A stretch of DNA of 64,000 bases from Capsaspora owczarzaki ATCC 30864 (taxonomy: Eukaryota; Opisthokonta; Filasterea): contig NW_011887296.1 of NCBI RefSeq assembly GCF_000151315.2, positions 529,095-593,094 of the forward strand, given 5' to 3'. A program made the translations under genes and the position numbers. Below the pieces are notes generated by a model, which worked only from the letters and a program-made list of their open reading frames with translations, did not search any database and was not told the DNA's origin. Within the stretch, counting starts at the first letter, position 1. Each line of letters starts with the position of its first letter. Below are positions 30,343 to 42,343 of this stretch, piece by piece.

Positions 30343-31911
30343 ATGTCCGGGTCCACGTTGCCACCGGCATTGCATCCGACGCCCGGATCGCCCGTAGCAG
30401 CGACTGCAGCAGCAGACCCGAGCGACTCTGAGCAGTTCTTCTCTGGCGCAGTGGCTGGCGTTGTGCGCACCGTCTCGCGGGTGGTTGCGTCGCTGGGCAC
30501 CAAGACGATTGCCGGCACGATCGCCGGTCTGAGCGAGGAAGTCATGGGCTACCCGCTCGACCTCGTCAAGGCAAGTGTCTCTGAAGAGCTGGATGTTCCA
30601 TCGATGATGCTTCTTGCAATTGAAGTGGAGGTTGTCGTTGTTGTTGTTGTTGCTGCTGTTCGCATGATTCAACAACAAAGCTTGCCAAACCGCCAAGACT
30701 GCCGAACGAAACGTAACGTAACTTGAGCGATACTGACTGACGTCCGTACATTGCCCCACTCTCCTAGACTCGAATGCAAGTGCACACAAAGCCAGTCTCA
30801 GCGCTGACTGTATTCCGCGAAGTCATTGCTCAGAACGGTGTATGTTGGGTTTTGTTTTTTCGTGTCCGACTGTAAATTTGTTCGATTATTCTGACGCTTT
30901 TGGAACACTGGACGACATTTGTCTTGTCTCGTTGGGTGTGGAATATCGCAACCATCGGAAACCACGCAGGTCACAGGAATTTTCAAAGGTCTGGGTCCGC
31001 CGCTGGCCGCATCCGCATTCGTCACGTCAGCACTGTTTGGCAGCTACTCGGCGGTTCTCGCTCAACTGCACACTCACCCCGTCATCCACGAACATAGCTT
31101 CTTGCGTATGTTGTAATTTCTTTTTGCTGCTGGGAGATTGTCGTGCTTTGGGGCTTCTCATAACATGCGTTGCATTTTCCAACGTTGAATCTGTCCCTGC
31201 AGAATTGAACGTGCACAACGCCATCGCAGGTGCTGGTGGTGGCTTGGCGCAAGCATTCCTTACGTGCCCCATTGATGTCGTCAAAAACCGGCTGCAGGTA
31301 GGTGTCGTCTCAACACTGCGGCGCTCTGTCGAGTTCTTCGCGTTGCGGCTTGCTCAAAATGAAGCAACAACCCCTCAACCCAGATCGAAGGCATGGGGCA
31401 CGGCGACGGCGGCCATGGACATGCTCATGGAGGCGGCGGCAGCGCCTTCAAGCTCGCTCGGCACATTGTTTCGTCCCACGGGTTGCGCGGATTGTATCTT
31501 GGCTTTGGTCCGACCCTCATGCGTGATGTGCCCGGTTACGCCGTGTTCTTTGCCTCGTACGAAAGCCTAAAGCATTTGATGCTGGGCGATGCCAAGCGTG
31601 GCGACGACGCAGAGCCGGACGGTGGCGAGCACGCTGGCGGGCCCTTGGCCGTCATTGTTGCAGGCGGCACGGCTGGCTCCCTGTACCACCTGTCCACCTA
31701 TCCGTTTGATGTGGTCAAGACGGCCATCCAGACGCAGCCAGATACCTATCCGCGCATGTACAAGAACACGTTCGACTGCTACAAGCAGTTGGTCGCGCAG
31801 TATGGACACGGCGCGCTCATCCGCGGCATTGGCCCGACCATGGTCCGCGCCTTCCCTGCAAACGCGGCGGGCTTCTTGGCATACGAGCTGACTCTTCGTT
31901 TGCTCCCGTAG
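30343..31911 (+). CDS. Mitochondrial carrier (SLC25 family, carnitine/ornithine-type)
   Basis: Inner-membrane metabolite carrier. Exons 30343-30570, 30768-30839, 30970-31105, 31203-31297 and 31384-31911 give 352 residues. The three carrier signatures are visible: PLDLVKTRMQ, PIDVVKNRLQ and YPFDVVKTAIQ. RDVPGYAVFFASYE and RAFPANAAGFLAYE are typical of the SLC25A20/A29/A15 branch (carnitine/acylcarnitine, basic amino acids). The first intron uses a GC donor (AAG|GCAAGT at 30571). A His/Gly-rich segment (31390-31443) is inserted just after the second signature, in the matrix loop. Its end lies 175 bp from the end of TIM8. The substrate cannot be assigned from the sequence alone. Confidence 0.9.
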
Positions 31912-32086: not shown

Positions 32087-32979
32087 TTACTGCTGCTTTC
32101 GGATCTCGTCGAGACGGTTGACAATGAAGTGGGTCGAGTCCAAAAAGCGCTCCACACACTGGGTCAAGCAAGCCTCCTCCTTGGCCTCGAGGCGGTTGCC
32201 TGGCTTGTCGATGCACTTGTCCCAGCACATTTCCGTAAATTTGTGAACCTATTCAGCCAAGTTTGTAACCATATCCGTTGAGTGAAGATGGGAATCGGGT
32301 TTTCACAGGGAGACTTTTTTTTTTTTTTTTTTTGTGGTTGGAACTGTAAATTGCACAGTAATCTGTGATGATACTATTTCTGGTGTGACTTCGGCTTCAA
32401 ACCGTCGCGGGTTGTGCGAGTTGACGGTTTGGCTGCCCCGTGCATTGCGCTGCTTTTGTCGGTCTTGGCAGTTCAGCACTTGCTCCGCTCACCAAGCAAC
32501 GATCGCCCCTCGTTCTTGTTGGGCTTGCTTGTTGCGTGTGCTTTCGGCTTGACTGCCGATGCAATTGAGGTGTTGCCTCCGAGCTCAGGGGTAGGCGAGG
32601 GACGCTCGACGGCGCGCTCAGCTCAAAGCCATGCGTCTCGCAGCCCAAAAACGCCTCGCTCGTCCGTCCACCTGCTTCCCCTCTGCCTCTTCCTCTGTCT
32701 CGCTCTCTCGCTCGGTACCATGAATGTAAACACTGCGTAAACAGCATGTGCTAGAATTGTCACTGCCGAATCGGATCGGATCTCGTCCTGTCTGCTCTCT
32801 CTCTCTCTCTCTCTCTCTCTCAATGTTCCACTCAGTCACCGCTCATGCTCAGATGGATGGGCAAAAAAGACCCCCCGTACTTGTGCGTGGAAGCGAGCTT
32901 TTTGCTGCTCAATCTCGACAAACTGCTGGAGCTCCTTGTCCGTATCGTAGCCGGGAATGCTGGAAATCTGCTGCTCCAT
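32087..32979 (-). CDS. TIM8: TIM8 small mitochondrial chaperone
   Basis: Intermembrane-space chaperone that partners TIM13 to escort hydrophobic precursors to TIM22/TIM23. Minus-strand exons 32881-32979 and 32087-32248 (phase 0) give 86 residues, the normal size. The twin CX3C motif is CWDKC (Cys41, Cys45) and CLTQC (Cys60, Cys64), with 14 residues between the pairs as in the small-TIM family. The flanks (FTEMCWDKCIDKPGNRLEA and FIVNRLDEIRKQQ) match TIM8 rather than TIM9/10/13. Neither exon stands out as a long open frame, so the gene is easy to miss. A CT microsatellite sits in its intron. Confidence 0.95.
32795..32821. repeat. (CT)n microsatellite
   Basis: Thirteen or so CT units in the single intron of the TIM8 gene, about 60 bases from its first exon. 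Confidence 0.85.
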
Positions 32980-33141: not shown

Positions 33142-36100
33142 TCAATGGAGATCAATGACACGGCTCGGGCTCGGGCTCGACGCCTGCCATGGTGTGCGGC
33201 AGACAGGACAGGGCTTCTGTCCCTTGGATCCTTGAGCACACGGTTCGCACACACAAGCGTGGCGACATGGGAGAAGCGACACGCTCCGCGCTCGCTTGAC
33301 ACACCACAGACACTCGCCTCGGCGAACCACCTTGCTGTCAGCAGCCGAGGCCGTGCTCCTCTCGGTCAAGCGCTGCAAAACAGTGGAAAAGTCTGGACGC
33401 TCCTCTGGTGAGTCGCGCAGACACTCAATCGCAACGTTGCATGCGTCTTCCGCAACGCGTTGCATGCGCTCCTGCCACTCAACCTCTCGGTCGAGCTGGC
33501 TGGCCAAGCCGTCGCTGTCCAGACGCTTCAGCTCAAAGCTGGGCAATTGGGCAGTCCACATCTCAAGGATTAGCATGCCAAACGAATGCACGTCCGTCGT
33601 GAGCGAGACTTTGCCCAAACTCAAATATGCGGGGCACAATGTGGCGCGGACGGCAGAGCACAATAACTGCGCAGAGGACGCTCCTGCAAAGGGGGGCACA
33701 AAGCCAAAGTTGGTCACTTTGGCAACGCCCGCAGCATTCAGCAGCACACTCGCAGTTGAGAGTCGAAGATGGAAAATCGGCTGGTTGCGGCTGGCTGTTT
33801 GCGCGTAGAGCATCGCGCGGGCGACGCTTTCGATAACGTCCTGACGCTGGTGCCCGGTGAGGCGAGCCTTGTGCTTGCCATCCAGCCAGTCGCGCACCGT
33901 CCCGTTCGGCAGGCATTCGTAGATCAAGTTGATGCCGCCAGTTGGCACCAGCGCGTGGTCGAGAAGCGGCGCAATGTGCTCGTGCTTTAGGTGATTGCTC
34001 ATGAGCTTAATCTCTCGGTCGACCCATTTCTTGTCAGTCAGCACGGTCGCAGACATGGGTGAGTGATAAACAACCACCTGGTAGCCATTCCATTCACCGC
34101 GAAGGTGGGGTCCAAGAGTCCCGTTGGTCGCAGCCTCGGGTGGCTGATCGACAGCCAGTGACAGACGATCGTCGGGGTAATCGTCCATCGGCTGGGACGC
34201 CTCGAGTGAGGGCATGTTATCGAAAGGCGAGCATGGGCGCGCGGGCACGGAAATGTCAGGGCGCAAGGCAGCCAAATGAGCGCTGGTGCTAAAGAGTCCG
34301 TTGTTGTTGTTGTTGTTGTTGTTGTTGTTGCCGTTGTTGTTGCCGTTGTTGTTGGAAGATTGGGCGTGAAAGGGCGCAGAAACACGACGCGCATTGGAGG
34401 AGGAGGAGGTCTGGTCGGACGATGGCGATTCTGCTGCAAGTGATTCTACATGCATGGCCACTACCGCAGCTTGAGTCTCGTCCATTGACGAATCGTCCAT
34501 GCGATCGTGGCTCGGAGATGTCGCGTAGTTAAGGCTAGGTGGCAGGGTGCCCAAGCTCAGTATTGAAGGCTGGACCTCGACGACGCTTGGCGTGATGGTC
34601 TGGGCAAAGTGCACACTTGGATCGTCCGAATGCGCAATGACATCGTCATCCTCTCCATCAGTGTGCTTGTCTCCGTCACCCTCAACGTCCACATCAGAAT
34701 TGGTCGGAGGCTGCTCTTGCGCAAGGCTTGCGACGAGATTGCGCATCGCTGTTCGCTTGTTGGAAATGTCGCTGGGCGAGAACCAGGTTGCGTTCTACCA
34801 CAATGGCGCAAAGGAGAGTATGTCAACAAAGATGAGCCAAGGAGTATAATCAGCGCAAACAACGCTCGCAACAGTTCTGCAGTCGCGTACGCAATGAAGC
34901 CCCGCGGTCGGGTCGATGATGAATCGCTCCATCAACTCCAACAAGTACACGCCACAGTCGCAATAGTTGGTTTGTTTGGGGCACTATCGCAGCGAGGTGA
35001 AAACGAAACATTGGTTGAGCACAGACCCGCAGCGAAAATAGAGTGAAATAGTTTAAAAAAACAATAAAACAAATAAAAAAATCACCTTGGCCACGCTGCC
35101 TTTCATGGAACGAAAATCGACAGGTGGCTGCTCGGCCCGTTTGTTTTTCCACTCGGATGATAGATAGCTGTGTGCAGCAATGAGCGAAGAGAAGGAGACA
35201 GAATGAAACGCCACGCTTCCTCAGACCAACGGAAGCAAAAGAGAATCTTCTTACCCGAGCAACTGTCTGGAGACTTGGGATCGAAAGGATCCGTTTAAAG
35301 AATCAAACATGATAATTTGAGGCATCGTGGTTGAGGACCTGTTCAGCCCAAGAACAAAACAAAACATAAGCAACAACAACAAAGAAGAAAAAATGATTCA
35401 GAGCTAAATCTACGTACTTGGAAGGAGCGTTCGCCTCGGACGGCAGCTCAAGCAAGGAAGGAGTGGACAGCTGAGTATCGTCACTTGGCGAGTCGGCGGG
35501 CTCGACAACCAAGCTGCTGGCGCTGGGGACGGGGCTGGCGGCAGGGTCGGCTGGCTCTGTCGGCTCCTCAGGCGACGACGACTTGTGGACGGATCTCTCA
35601 GCACTATCCCCATTCATCGGTTGTGGCCCAGAGTCGGTTGAGCCTGGGCGACTTGTGGCAGCATCCGACTCTGACTGGGCAAGGAAACTCTCTGCAAACT
35701 TTCCAGGGTAGCACACGACCATAAAGTACCAGTGTTGGCTGTGGGGAAATCAAAAGGTGAGCATGCGCGTTCTTGTGGACAAAGACCAAACCTCGCGCAT
35801 TTCAAAGAGGAATCGGGCATACCTGGCGTTGATGGGAAAGAACAAAAAGTCCTTGGAAAAAATATCGACGTTGCGCGTCCAGGTCCGAACATGTTGGTAC
35901 TTGATGTCCATGAGATCTTGCGAGCTGGATGGGGTCGATGGCGAAGAGTAGGCAACGCAAAAAAAAAATCAATGAACAGCGCGGTGACACGCCGAGAAAG
36001 CTCAGACATCAACAAACCTGGATTTCTCAGTCGGGCTGGTGCCGTTGCGGTCCCGGGAGAAGGGATCGCTGCTACTATGAGTTCCAGTCAGTCGACTGTA

Positions 36101-39100
36101 AAAGAAGGTGCTGAAAACGTGGCATTGATTGCGCTGCGCGTCCGATGCTTTGACGGTCAAGAAATAGCTGAAAACCGAAAACCAGAAGAAGCAGAGTGAG
36201 CAAAAGCTGGGACTGGAGCAACAACGAACGAACGAACGAACGAACGAACGAACGAACGAACGAACGAACGAACGAACGACGCAGCGCAGGAACGAGGAAT
36301 CGAGCAAGAATGCTTACTTGATGTAAAAGTCCAGAATGACATCGTTCAAGTACTCTTCCTCGTACAGTCGCATCGCATCGGCATTGCGAACAGTGATTGG
36401 AGCGCCGATTAATGGGCGGTAGATGACGTCGCTGCGTCAAAGAGGAATCACCCACCGAAGCAACAAGACAAAGAAAGCGAACGATCAATCACACAAGCGG
36501 TTAGCGCCCTTGGCTGTTGACAAGTACAACAACCTGCGCAATTATTGAGCAACATGAGTGCGCATACCTAGTGAGCAGCTTGGGTCTGGCTTTGACCACC
36601 TCGATACCAGACAATGCGGAAAAGTCACTCCCGGACGAAATACTGGACCGCGTTCGGCGTGATGTGAGCCCAACAGCGCTCGTACCGGCACCAGAACAGA
36701 TAATTTCGTCCTTGGCTGCGCGACCACGATTGATTGTGTTTTCAACGAGCTGCACATCGTACGACGTGGAACTGCACAGGATGATCATGCGAACGTCGGA
36801 GAGTATCGACTGCTGCTCGGCCTCTTGAGCAGCAGCAGCAGCGGCGGCGGCGGGGCGAACGCCAGCAGCAGAGGAGGGGTGCTTGAATTGCTTGTCCCAT
36901 AGACTATCTTGACCAGAGGCGACAGAGAACAAGGGCTCTGTGCGTCGCGGCGCAAGCGCCCCTTTGCCGACAGTTTCGTTGACTTGAGGGAACAGATCGG
37001 CAGAAAAGTCCGAGCCGGGATCATCCGTCGTGGTGGGAACTTTGCTCGAGCGCGAGGCAGCGGTTTCTTGGTTGGGCTCTTTGCTCGGGCGCACATGAAT
37101 GGTGGTCTTGCGGGTTTGATGCTCAAACTTCCAGTCCGTGATTTGAGCCAACGGCACCACTACCTGCAAGAGGTCTCCGCCGCGAGTGTTTGACGTTTGC
37201 GCTTGGAAAAGCGGGGGCTCCGTGTCTTGCGTGGCAATGTGGGATTGGTCGAGCGCCGAGTCGTCATCATCGCAAACAATGGGAGTGCCTGTGCTGGCGG
37301 AGCGGGCGGTGGTTGGGACGAGAAGGAGGCTGAGACGCGACGCTTCGAACGTGATTGACACAACCCTTCCAGTGATTGTCTTGCCGTCAGGCAGCTCAAT
37401 GGCGGCAGTGTCCGCGGGAATGCTCTCCAGCGAGTCCAAGTGGCTCTTTTTGGTCCGGTGCGAGTCCGGGTCGTACGGTAGCGAGCGGCGTCGCTTCAAT
37501 CCTCCTTGCTGGGATTGGAATGCATTGTCATCGTTATCGCCCTCGCTGACCTGGGCACTCGAGCCACCATGGAGTGGTTTCGCCGCAGCAAAACTGTCTT
37601 TGATGTTACTTTGCCGTGTGCCGCGTGTGACGACGGTCCGTGTCGACTCTGCCGCTTGCGTCATCCGCTTGCCGGGGCGCCGGTTTGCGTGCGAAGACAT
37701 TTTGTCGTCGGCATCGTCATCGTCATCGTCCAGTGTTTCGTCGCTCATCCGGAGCATGGGCGATGCCGGACTCCGAGATGATTTTCTGGCGGCCGATGAT
37801 GTTGGCGAGGCACTCGCTCTGGAGTTCCGACCCGGATGTTTGGAGCCGCTCGATGAGGTTGCAGCTGCTGCAGTGGGGGATTTCAGATAAAACAGCTGGG
37901 CGCTGGCAGGAAGGCCGTCCTGTGACTTGCTCAAGGACGACGATTGCCTCGGGTCTTTGGCAGCTGGCGACACTCGGCGCTGCCCGGACGAGTCCTGCTT
38001 GGCTTCGAGGACCCCGAGGTCGTGGTGGCCGGCATCGTCATCGAGAACAATCATGGATTCGTTGAGAGAGTGGGACGGTGCAACGTGCTGGTCCCACTGT
38101 GCCGCCGCTTCGTCGTGTCGCAATTGGTCGGGGTCTGCGGCTCTTTGACGTGGTGGTTGCGCAGTCTTTGGCTTGACTCGTGCGAGCCCTGAACCTATTA
38201 TTGTGTGATTCGGCAAACTCGAAAAGCCACGTACTGGGTGTGAAGGTCTGGGTTCCGGAAGTGTCAATGCGGGCTCGGCTCCGAGCTCGGACTGTTGCAA
38301 GTCGGGGGGACGGTCGCGCGTGACTAGAAATGCGGAATCGATTGGCTCCGAGTCTTGCACAACAAGCACGTCTCCGTGCGCCGAATCGTCGCCGTTCCCG
38401 TGATGGTTTGAGTGATGGTTTGCGGTGATGGGTGCTCTGTCGATGCCTTGTTCTTCTTCCAAGTCTTCTTCTCGTTGTTGCTGTTGCAAGTCTTCTTGTC
38501 GTCGGTGGCGTCGTTGTTCTTGGGTGCTCCGGGTGGCATGTCTGTCATCAGTGTCGGCACGATCTTGCGATAGATTGGCAGGTGCTCGAGCGGCTCGGAC
38601 GGCACGTCGACCACTGAGCGACTGCGAGACTGTGGATTCTGTCTGCTCGCTTAGCACTGGTGTAGTCCTAATGCTACCATCACCACCACCACTGTGGCCG
38701 GCACTCGTGGTGATCGTGGCAGCGACACTGGCGGGAACTTGTCTTCGCTCCAGCGACAAGTTCTTGCGACCGCCCAAACCCGCAGCATTAGGCAGTCGTT
38801 CTGAGTAGTCCGGATTCAGTGCGCTGGTCATACCGACGCGCATCAATGATGGTGATGATGAGGACAATGCTCTCGACGGTGTTCTTGCAACTTGCGCTTC
38901 AGCGTTGCTGTGGTCGTAGTCCTCGTCGTCGCCGTCGCCCGGTGCTGTGAACTGCTTCCGTCGTGTTGTCGTTGCGGTCTTGTCTTGCTTGCTTGTCAGG
39001 CTTGGTTCCATTCGCGTCGTCGTCGCCGTCGTCGTCATGCTCGTCCATCGGTAGTCGTCGTCGTGGTCCTGCTGGCTGTCCTCAACGCGCTCGTCCTGCT

Positions 39101-39105
39101 CCTGT

Positions 39106-39139
<34 letters not shown>

Positions 39140-39221
39140 CGTCCTCCTGCTGCCGCCGCTGCTTGCTGGTGGCTTGCTCGTCGTCATCGTCCTCGTCCAC
39201 AACATGCACCGTGTCTGGCAT
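33142..39221 (-). CDS. SENP6/7-like SUMO protease fused to pseudokinase and RING finger
   Basis: Nine minus-strand exons: 36568-39221, 36318-36431, 36018-36167, 35823-35924, 35418-35738, 35255-35338, 35086-35167, 34891-34983 and 33142-34794; all phases agree, giving 1750 residues. Residues 1-885 are acidic/Ser-rich. The Ulp1-type protease core follows: YEEEYLNDVILDFYIN, HVRTWTRNVDIF, HWYF (His1009), IMFDSLNGS (Asp1126) and PKQTNYCDCGVY (Gln1173, Cys1179). The full catalytic set is present, with a Ser-rich insert of the SENP6/7 kind. The last exon opens with WFSPSDISNKRTAMRNLVASL, the family's C-terminal helix, and runs without a stop through a disordered linker into a kinase-like domain (about residues 1430-1690). 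That domain lacks the VAIK Lys, the HRD Asp and the DFG Asp. A C3HC4 RING (CLWC...CRH...CPVC) ends the protein. The start is the first ATG of the long first exon. Confidence 0.85.
36223..36279. repeat. (AACG)n microsatellite in intron
   Basis: About 14 tandem AACG units within the second intron of the SUMO-protease gene. Confidence 0.9.
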
Positions 39222-40806: not shown

Positions 40807-42039
40807 CTACAGGGCACGGTCACATCCGAGCTGAGCAGCGACTTGACGAATCGCCGTTTCTCGCTCCTCAAACATTGGATGCGAGAAACTAGCACGATCG
40901 CCATCGGGCGTGACGCCAAGCACGACCCACTCACGCGGAATACCCACGGGCGGCGGCCACGAGATACTCTTTCGTTTACTAAGGTACTCTGCAGCGGCGG
41001 CGGGCGTGTCACGGAGATGGAGGGGCACGTAGTCTTGCGGGAATTCTGTCGTGTAGTTGTCGAACAGGAACTTGTTGAATGCCCGCGATGCAGCAAAGCG
41101 CGCAAAAGCACCATCGACAAAGTCACATCCCAAGGCAGCTGCACGACGGTCTGCTTGTAGCTCGACAAACTGGCTCGACAACGCGTGCATGCTCGTGACT
41201 GGAATGACGGCGAGCAAGCTGCTTGCCACCGTTCGCACAAGTCTGCCGCGGCGCGCGAGTATGCCGCGGCGTGCCAGGAAGGCAGACAGACCACAGAACG
41301 TCACTGCAAGCACATTTGCGCGTGCGATTGCCCAAAAGCCGTGCGCGTGCTGAATGTGCGAGAGCTCGTGCGCAATGACAAAGTCAACCGCCTCGATCGG
41401 CATGTCGTCGTAGAATGTGAGCGCGTCCTTCAAGACGGGATGCAAGATGGAGTTCTGCGATGTCACTCGCCGCTGCGGCGGAGGGCGACGGGACAGTATT
41501 GCTTCCCCGGTTGCCTTGCCCGAATGGTCGCTCGTTGAGGCGGATTTTGGCAGACCATCCTCACCCTCGCCCTCGCGCGGCACTGAGGCATCACCAGATC
41601 CGAACGACGACAATGATGATGATGACGCCATTCTTGATGTCGACGCATTCGTGTCGTCGCTCGGGACGAATCTTGATCCCGCCTTGTAGTGACGCTTGAT
41701 CGCGGCGGCCATCGCGTCTGGCAGCACGACGAACGGACCCGGCCGCGACGACAGCGAGCCCTGCGACTCTGCATAGATGGCTTCGTGGACTCTGACGCGG
41801 ACTGACCGCGCCTCTTGGTCCGTGTAGCCGAGCAGCTTGGCAATGCGCCGGACGCGCTCAATCACCTCGTACTCTGTGGCGAACGTCGGCAGCGTCGCGT
41901 CGTCCTCGCTCGGATAGAGCGGGTTGAGTTGCAGGTTGACGGCCGACGCGTTCACGTAGCCATACAGGCCGATGCCGCATCCGACCGCGAACGTCGTAAC
42001 CGGGTTGCGCAGAAACGCAGGGACGATGATTCGGACCAT
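40807..42039 (-). CDS. Membrane M48-type metallopeptidase, TMEM177-like
   Basis: Single exon of 410 residues from ATG 42039. The zinc motif HELSH is in VIAHELSHIQHAHG, and the downstream E-L-Q-A-D supplies the usual third ligand Glu, so the active site looks intact. Hydrophobic segments lie near the N-terminus (FAVGCGIGLYGYV) and just after the zinc motif (two hairpin-like stretches). The string VELQADRRAAAL lines up with V-E-x-x-x-D-R-R-x-A-x-L of animal TMEM177, a mitochondrial COX20 partner whose peptidase motif is degenerate; this is recalled, not searched. OMA1-like or another M48 protease is the alternative. It shares a 304 bp divergent promoter with the IVD gene. Confidence 0.8.
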   Translation of the reverse strand: MVRIIVPAFLRNPVTTFAVGCGIGLYGYVNASAVNLQLNPLYPSEDDATLPTFATEYEVIERVRRIAKLLGYTDQEARSVRVRVHEAIYAESQGSLSSRPGPFVVLPDAMAAAIKRHYKAGSRFVPSDDTNASTSRMASSSSLSSFGSGDASVPREGEGEDGLPKSASTSDHSGKATGEAILSRRPPPQRRVTSQNSILHPVLKDALTFYDDMPIEAVDFVIAHELSHIQHAHGFWAIARANVLAVTFCGLSAFLARRGILARRGRLVRTVASSLLAVIPVTSMHALSSQFVELQADRRAAALGCDFVDGAFARFAASRAFNKFLFDNYTTEFPQDYVPLHLRDTPAAAAEYLSKRKSISWPPPVGIPREWVVLGVTPDGDRASFSHPMFEERETAIRQVAAQLGCDRAL

Positions 42040-42343
42040 CAGCACGACGTCTGAGAAACGGTGATGAGAAAAGAGAAGAGTGAGACTGAGAGACTGAGAC
42101 GCGAGACGTGAGACGTGAGACTGAGACTGCGAGACGTGAGACGTGAGACTGAGACTGCGACTGAGACTGAGACTGAGTTTTGTCTCCTCGAACGTGCTGA
42201 GCGCGCGTTGATCTTTGAATCTCTTTGTCCATCCCCGTCTCAATCTCAATCCCCATCTCAATCCCCATCTCAATCTCTCAGTATCTCAATCCCATCTCTC
42301 ACCATCTCTCAGTCTTCTTCCATCCACCCCTCCATTTCCAAAC
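42040..42343. repeat. Bidirectional promoter with GAGAC/CTGAGA minisatellite
   Basis: Spacer between the M48 peptidase and IVD starts. At 42080-42177 it holds GAGACGTGAGACTGAGACTG-type units, including two exact copies of a 28 bp unit from about 42103 to 42158. It is followed at 42238-42310 by a CT-rich stretch of CTCAATCCCCAT units that is partly complementary to the first array. Confidence 0.8.

Follow-up and report, generated by a model that had tools for sequence, protein, structure and literature searches.

Gene structure and domain order at the locus

The window, a stretch of 64,000 nucleotides from the genome of Capsaspora owczarzaki ATCC 30864, carries on its minus strand (positions 39221 to 33142) a gene for which nine exons and eight GT-AG introns were modelled, yielding a single frame of 1750 residues. 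From N- to C-terminus, the predicted product consists of a disordered N-terminus, a complete SENP6/7-type SUMO protease, a linker, a kinase-like domain and a C3HC4 RING. A Pfam search with the whole protein returned Peptidase_C48 (residues 911-1195, E 3.7e-28), PK_Tyr_Ser-Thr (residues 1437-1676, E 9.9e-18) and zf-C3HC4_3 (residues 1693-1737, E 4.4e-11), i.e. the domains and the order that a preliminary description of the locus had proposed. With NCBIfam only kinase matches were obtained, all far below cut-off.

All exons lie on the minus strand. The first ATG of the exon 1 open frame is at 39221, and this exon (36568..39221) encodes a long disordered acidic N-terminus with a KRRR cluster at residue 576, and a possible PH-like region ahead of the protease. 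The latter was recognised by eye at about 36568-37410 (minus strand) and this stretch gave no match in Pfam; in a fungal homologue (P0003), a Pfam PH_35 domain precedes the protease. The SENP6/7 catalytic domain begins in exon 2 (36318..36431, SDVIYRPL...EYLNDVILDFYI) and continues through exon 3 (36018..36167, HVFSTFFY segment) and exon 4 (35823..35924, VRTWTRNVDIFSKDFLFFPINA). Exon 5 (35418..35738) provides the catalytic His (H1009 in QHWY) together with a long low-complexity insert that separates it from the catalytic Asp, exon 6 (35255..35338) that Asp (D1126 in IIMFDSL), exon 7 (35086..35167) a further protease segment (YLSSEWKNKR...), and exon 8 (34891..34983) the catalytic Cys (C1179 in NYCDCGVY) with its preceding Gln (Q1173). 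After intron 8 (34795..34890, 96 bases, GTACGC...GGTAG), exon 9 (33142..34794) encodes the SENP6/7 C-terminal helix (WFSPSDISNKRTAMRNLVASL, 34723..34785), which aligns with SENP7 and with a second gene of this type described below; a Ser/Asp/Asn-rich linker, presumably disordered (34132..34722); a TKL/IRAK-like pseudokinase domain (33367..34131), supported by Pfam and by motif comparison with related genes; the RING (CLWC...CRH...CEPC...CPVCR, 33184..33318); and a C-terminal tail (SPSPSRVIDLH) with the stop codon (33142..33183).

The exon of the SENP helix had been described as running without a stop through the linker into the kinase-like domain and RING, with every upstream junction in phase. 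Both statements hold: the open frame spans 550 codons (33142-34794), and the eight introns maintain one frame throughout. The observation of protease, kinase-like domain and RING in one reading frame is thus confirmed for the modelled gene.

The likely start codon of the next gene on the same strand lies just 162 bases beyond the stop of the fusion gene, so genes are packed tightly in this region. This next gene, at about 32100-32979 (minus strand), presumably encodes a small Tim protein, as its twin CX3C motifs (CWDKC...CLTQC) resemble those of that family. Other neighbours are an M48 peptidase gene (40807-42285, minus strand) and a mitochondrial carrier gene (31363-31911, plus strand).

The protease half and its unfused relative

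Among solved structures, the protease is closest to SENP7 chains (E 1.3e-39), followed by Ulp2 (9.4e-17) and SENP1 (2.3e-13), and is hence nearer to SENP7 than to SENP1. H1009, D1126, C1179 and Q1173 align with the catalytic residues of SENP7 and are found in all five homologues aligned, one from Capsaspora (L058) and four from the database (P0001-P0004). The catalytic His and Asp are 117 positions apart, with the low-complexity insert between them, as is characteristic of SENP6/7. Identity over the protease domain amounts to 109/264 aligned positions with L058, to 109/323 and 101/298 with the animal homologues P0001 and P0002, and to 89/319 with each of P0003 and P0004. The proposed SENP6/7 identity of the protease is therefore upheld, with its catalytic residues retained and SENP7 as nearest solved structure, and the comparison supports an Ulp2-type enzyme predicted to cleave SUMO chains. 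A SUMO gene with QTGG is present in the Capsaspora genome. SENP6, SENP7 and yeast Ulp2 have in common with the fusion protein the catalytic domain, the triad, the Gln before the Cys, long inserts and the C-terminal WF..KR helix. We know of no kinase or RING domain on any of them, and none was found by Pfam on P0001 and P0003.

The contig that carries the fusion gene features a second SENP6/7-type gene, L058 (G000:C5:1531000-1537500), whose last exon ends at its own stop, 114 codons into the open frame, and encodes neither kinase nor RING. As L058 terminates in this way after an intron shared with the fusion gene (see below), the unfused form is, on this comparison of two genes, the ordinary one. 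The other junctions of L058 resemble those of the fusion gene by eye, and a candidate SUMO-interacting motif (VVDLSD) precedes its protease. Neither L058 nor the fusion gene was recovered in a Pfam search of the genome for C48 domains, probably because both are cut into short exons. The WF..KR helix was not seen in the open frames inspected at three other C48 loci (L001, L052 and L053); L001 and L052 appear SENP1-like by eye.

The junction between protease and kinase-RING

The open frame of exon 9 begins directly after the TAG that serves as modelled acceptor of intron 8. Across the intron 8 gap, eight GT/GC-to-AG joins lead stop-free into the WFSPSD frame; they share a single acceptor, and the modelled donor is singled out among them by the homologous intron of L058. 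Position and phase of intron 8 are common to both genes, with breaks at GMRC | DKDWFAATDVSGKRPAIRGLI in L058 and GLHC | NATWFSPSDISNKRTAMRNLV in the fusion gene. This places the last exon of the fusion gene, as far as gene structure can tell, within the protease gene.

Coding potential across the junction was assessed by codon-usage log-odds in overlapping windows, with other Capsaspora genes as the training set. Between 34794 and 34135, codon usage favours the reading frame in all ten windows, and across exon 9 as a whole it does so in 24 of 26. In the other two windows, which cover RING and tail, another of the three frames scores better, and this weighs against the importance of the RING. 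The score is negative in the two windows immediately beyond the stop and climbs again in the next gene. There are no ambiguous bases (N) between 32001 and 40000. None of six poly(A) motifs was found on the minus strand between 32700 and 36600; since this includes the region beyond the gene's own stop, their absence from the linker is uninformative. If intron 8 were retained, the first in-frame stop would be the acceptor TAG itself, ahead of the pseudokinase-RING, and retention would therefore yield a protease-only product. Regulated intron retention is described as widespread in Capsaspora in the part of the literature considered here (PMC3870316), and retention of intron 8 is a possible isoform switch between a protease-only and a fused protein.

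A Capsaspora family of kinase-RING proteins

Twenty other places in the Capsaspora genome match the kinase-RING query across both domains with E <1e-41, and weaker places follow. A RING match was found separately at all 20 of these strong places, identity to the fusion copy at the 20 strongest is 35-40%, and the best sister (E 5.4e-50) is 37% identical across both domains. When RING and tail of one sister were used as query against the database, all 12 proteins returned were from Capsaspora owczarzaki ATCC 30864, several of them named TKL/IRAK protein kinases; the three kinase motifs are present in 12/12 and the RING pattern in 11/12. Members such as CAOG_07233 and CAOG_08263 have the kinase followed by the RING in one open frame, like the fusion copy. 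The N-terminal modules seen in the family are LRR, SH2 or COR (Pfam) or a coiled coil (by eye), in contrast to the protease in the fusion. By sequence relationship, the kinase-RING half is a cassette of this Capsaspora family. In a tree of the family the fusion copy sat on a very long branch (5.7) with uncertain placement, and the tree was not relied on. Two tandem RINGs follow the kinase in CAOG_08263 (P0007), which additionally has a COR-B match, and at G000:C19:101013-101330.

Motifs were compared with the 18 sister rows that cover them (L008-L021, L026, L027, L039 and L045), a set that leaves out four of the 20 strong places. The VA[VI]K lysine and the DFG aspartate are present in 18/18 sisters and lost in the fusion copy alone; the HxD aspartate, present in 17/18 (L020 has Asn), is lost there as well. 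The fusion copy has VVVY for VAVK, HLRLSTAS for HLDLKTDN and NFG for DFG, and thus lacks the kinase signature VAVK, HxDLKxxN, DFG, while its glycine loop reads TNGTLG for GGGGFG, with the first glycine lost and two of three kept. The label of pseudokinase given earlier is accordingly well founded, the ATP-binding lysine, the catalytic aspartate and the DFG aspartate all being absent. By comparison, 49 of the 69 columns invariant among the sisters are retained (36/52 in the kinase, 13/17 in the RING), against agreement with the family majority residue at 109 of 329 positions overall, and the 20 invariant columns lost include the kinase Lys, the Lys and Asn of the catalytic loop and the DFG Asp. 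Retention of invariant columns together with loss of the catalytic residues thus suggests that the fold was kept and catalysis dropped, as would be expected of a kinase that is maintained after losing its catalytic function; by this evidence, the fusion copy is a diverged descendant of the family rather than an active kinase member. At another locus, L020 (G000:C9:220470-221333), HLNLK replaces HLDLK and the glycine loop is altered, and this gene is possibly a second, less decayed pseudokinase.

All eight zinc ligands of the RING and its linchpin Arg, residues expected of a RING E3 ligase, are kept in the fusion copy. Between its first two cysteines the RING has a Trp; this position is Val in BIRC7 and MGRN1, and V, L or I in the 18 sisters apart from a single Y. 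In the fusion copy, a low-complexity SPSPS stretch has replaced the family tail G.[YF]..T[FY]V, which 17/18 sisters carry (L039 ends with TFT instead). The family tail resembles those that aid dimerisation of IAP and MDM2 RINGs. Ligase activity of the fused RING is thus putative and unproven, owing to loss of the family tail, even with its zinc ligands kept.

SUMO-interacting motifs

In residues 1-640, a single candidate for a strict SUMO-interacting motif was detected (VHVVDEDDDD, residue 5), a count that is equalled by 21.75% of 2000 shuffles and so is not above chance; two further disordered stretches were scanned and contained no strict motif. A looser definition gave four places, one of them within the protease, a figure that comes without a shuffle control. 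The fusion protein would, like the SUMO-targeted ubiquitin ligases (STUbLs) RNF4 and Slx5-Slx8, couple recognition of SUMO to a RING; those ligases bind SUMO through SUMO-interacting motifs, whereas the number of strict motifs in the fusion protein is at chance level.

Proposed function and alternative explanations

According to the parts of the literature considered here, SENP6 and Ulp2 shorten SUMO chains, RNF4 and Slx5-Slx8 attach ubiquitin to proteins that carry such chains (PMC8161396; PMC6891891; PMC3991395), and Ulp2/SENP6 and STUbLs act as antagonists on shared substrates (PMC6891891; PMC8161396). Against this background, the best reading is that of a domain-shuffled SENP6/7 in which the protease delivers the RING to proteins with SUMO chains or holds its own abundance down. 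In its specific form, to which we assign a tentative probability of about 0.4, a single gene encodes SENP6/7 with a kinase-RING cassette at the C-terminus, and the protease would dock the RING on SUMO-chain targets for ubiquitylation while trimming them. The protease half, perhaps with N-terminal SUMO-interacting motifs, would dock the protein on its targets; the kinase half would no longer phosphorylate and may instead be a binding platform or a folded spacer; the RING would recruit an E2 and transfer ubiquitin to the target, to the SUMO chain on it or to the fusion protein itself; and the protease would trim the SUMO chain concurrently. Since SENP6/Ulp2 and STUbLs normally compete for shared chains, the fusion protein would set the balance between them inside one chain. 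The steps that we infer in this proposal are the single mRNA, E2 recruitment, the targets and the direction of regulation. Of the initial interpretation of the locus, the domain order, the single frame and the pseudokinase have stood up to Pfam searches, splice modelling and motif analysis, whereas the self-contained SUMO-to-ubiquitin switch stays conjectural: RING ligands are kept, but the family tail is lost and the count of SUMO-interacting motifs is at chance. It is also conceivable, on the doubtful side, that the protein, as protease for SUMO chains and SUMO-directed ubiquitin ligase at once, forms a “countdown timer” which rescues a substrate by trimming or condemns it by ubiquitylating, the pseudokinase setting which half acts.

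The main rival, though itself unlikely, is that the RING works chiefly in cis, with self-ubiquitylation as a built-in stability control of the SUMO protease and no conversion of SUMO to ubiquitin in trans. Retention of zinc ligands and linchpin Arg fits this role. As the sisters carry a similar RING behind unrelated modules (LRR, SH2, COR, coiled coil), the RING need not be SUMO-specific, and RNF4 itself is reported, in the portion of the source considered, to be degraded upon accumulation of SUMO chains (PMC3991395). On the other hand, the unfused sister L058 does without such control, and present sequence data fit action in cis and in trans alike.

Next in rank, and quite unlikely, is an inactive docking appendage, i.e. 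a RING incapable of ubiquitin transfer on a protein that is SENP6/7 with an extra binding region. Exchange of the family tail for SPSPS, the Trp at an E2-facing position of the RING, the loss of kinase catalytic residues and a codon-usage signal that is weakest over RING and tail are all consistent with decay of this part. Persistence of 8/8 zinc ligands and the linchpin Arg, in a copy with 109/329 identity to the family majority, speaks against this reading.

A still smaller chance attaches to two transcription units or isoforms, with a protease mRNA ending by intron 8 and a kinase-RING mRNA starting in the linker. In-frame ATG codons are available in the linker at 34500, 34485, 34455, 34215 and 34188; retention of intron 8, a kind of event described as common in Capsaspora (PMC3870316, in part), would stop translation exactly at the acceptor and leave a protease-only product; and the database searches returned no protein from the locus, hence no published model that confirms the fusion. 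This two-gene reading is weakened by the intron 8 held in common with L058, which places the last exon in the protease gene, and by the linker being one coding-like open frame continuous with the conserved SENP helix. An assembly or frame artefact at the linker repeat (GTT/GCC, from 34300) is hardly credible, given that this in-frame repeat has trinucleotide units, lies away from any N and is flanked by coding signal on both sides.

Novelty and significance

The whole-protein database search, covering the 7999 candidates of about 962-3062 residues that share most words with the query, yielded four proteins, each of them a match to the SENP-type protease according to Pfam, and no relative with this domain order. 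A kinase-RING search over the same kind of candidate set, at about 303-963 residues, gave two weak kinase matches; it missed Capsaspora sisters that are present in the database and within that length range, so it is weak for distant relatives, but an identical protein should nonetheless have surfaced. No protein from the fusion locus itself appeared in either length range, so that its published gene model may be absent or of a length outside these ranges. The top-ranked open-licence PMC matches listed contained no fusion of a SUMO protease with a pseudokinase or a RING, and a survey of the ubiquitin system, in the passages considered, reports general diversification of SUMO peptidase and RING architectures and does not name the fusion (PMC4327156). 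The contention that no protein with this order had been described thus agrees with the protein database and open-licence PMC literature within the scope of these searches: the parts were known already, and their combination was not found elsewhere within that scope.

Arabidopsis KEG, like the fusion protein, combines kinase and RING in one chain. It has another domain order and other partners, and carries no SUMO protease. SENP6/Ulp2 and SUMO-targeted ubiquitin ligases have been studied as opponents on shared SUMO chains. Capsaspora, a close relative of animals, can be cultured, and its natural fusion would make these opposing activities testable in one molecule; matched controls are at hand in the same genome, namely the SENP6/7 without the fusion and some twenty sister proteins of the kinase-RING family. 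The distribution of this family suggests that domain shuffling has been carrying the kinase-RING cassette to various recognition modules, and its SUMO-linked copy suggests that in this setting the kinase decays while the RING ligands persist. If the fusion is real and active, two normally opposed activities would sit in one molecule.
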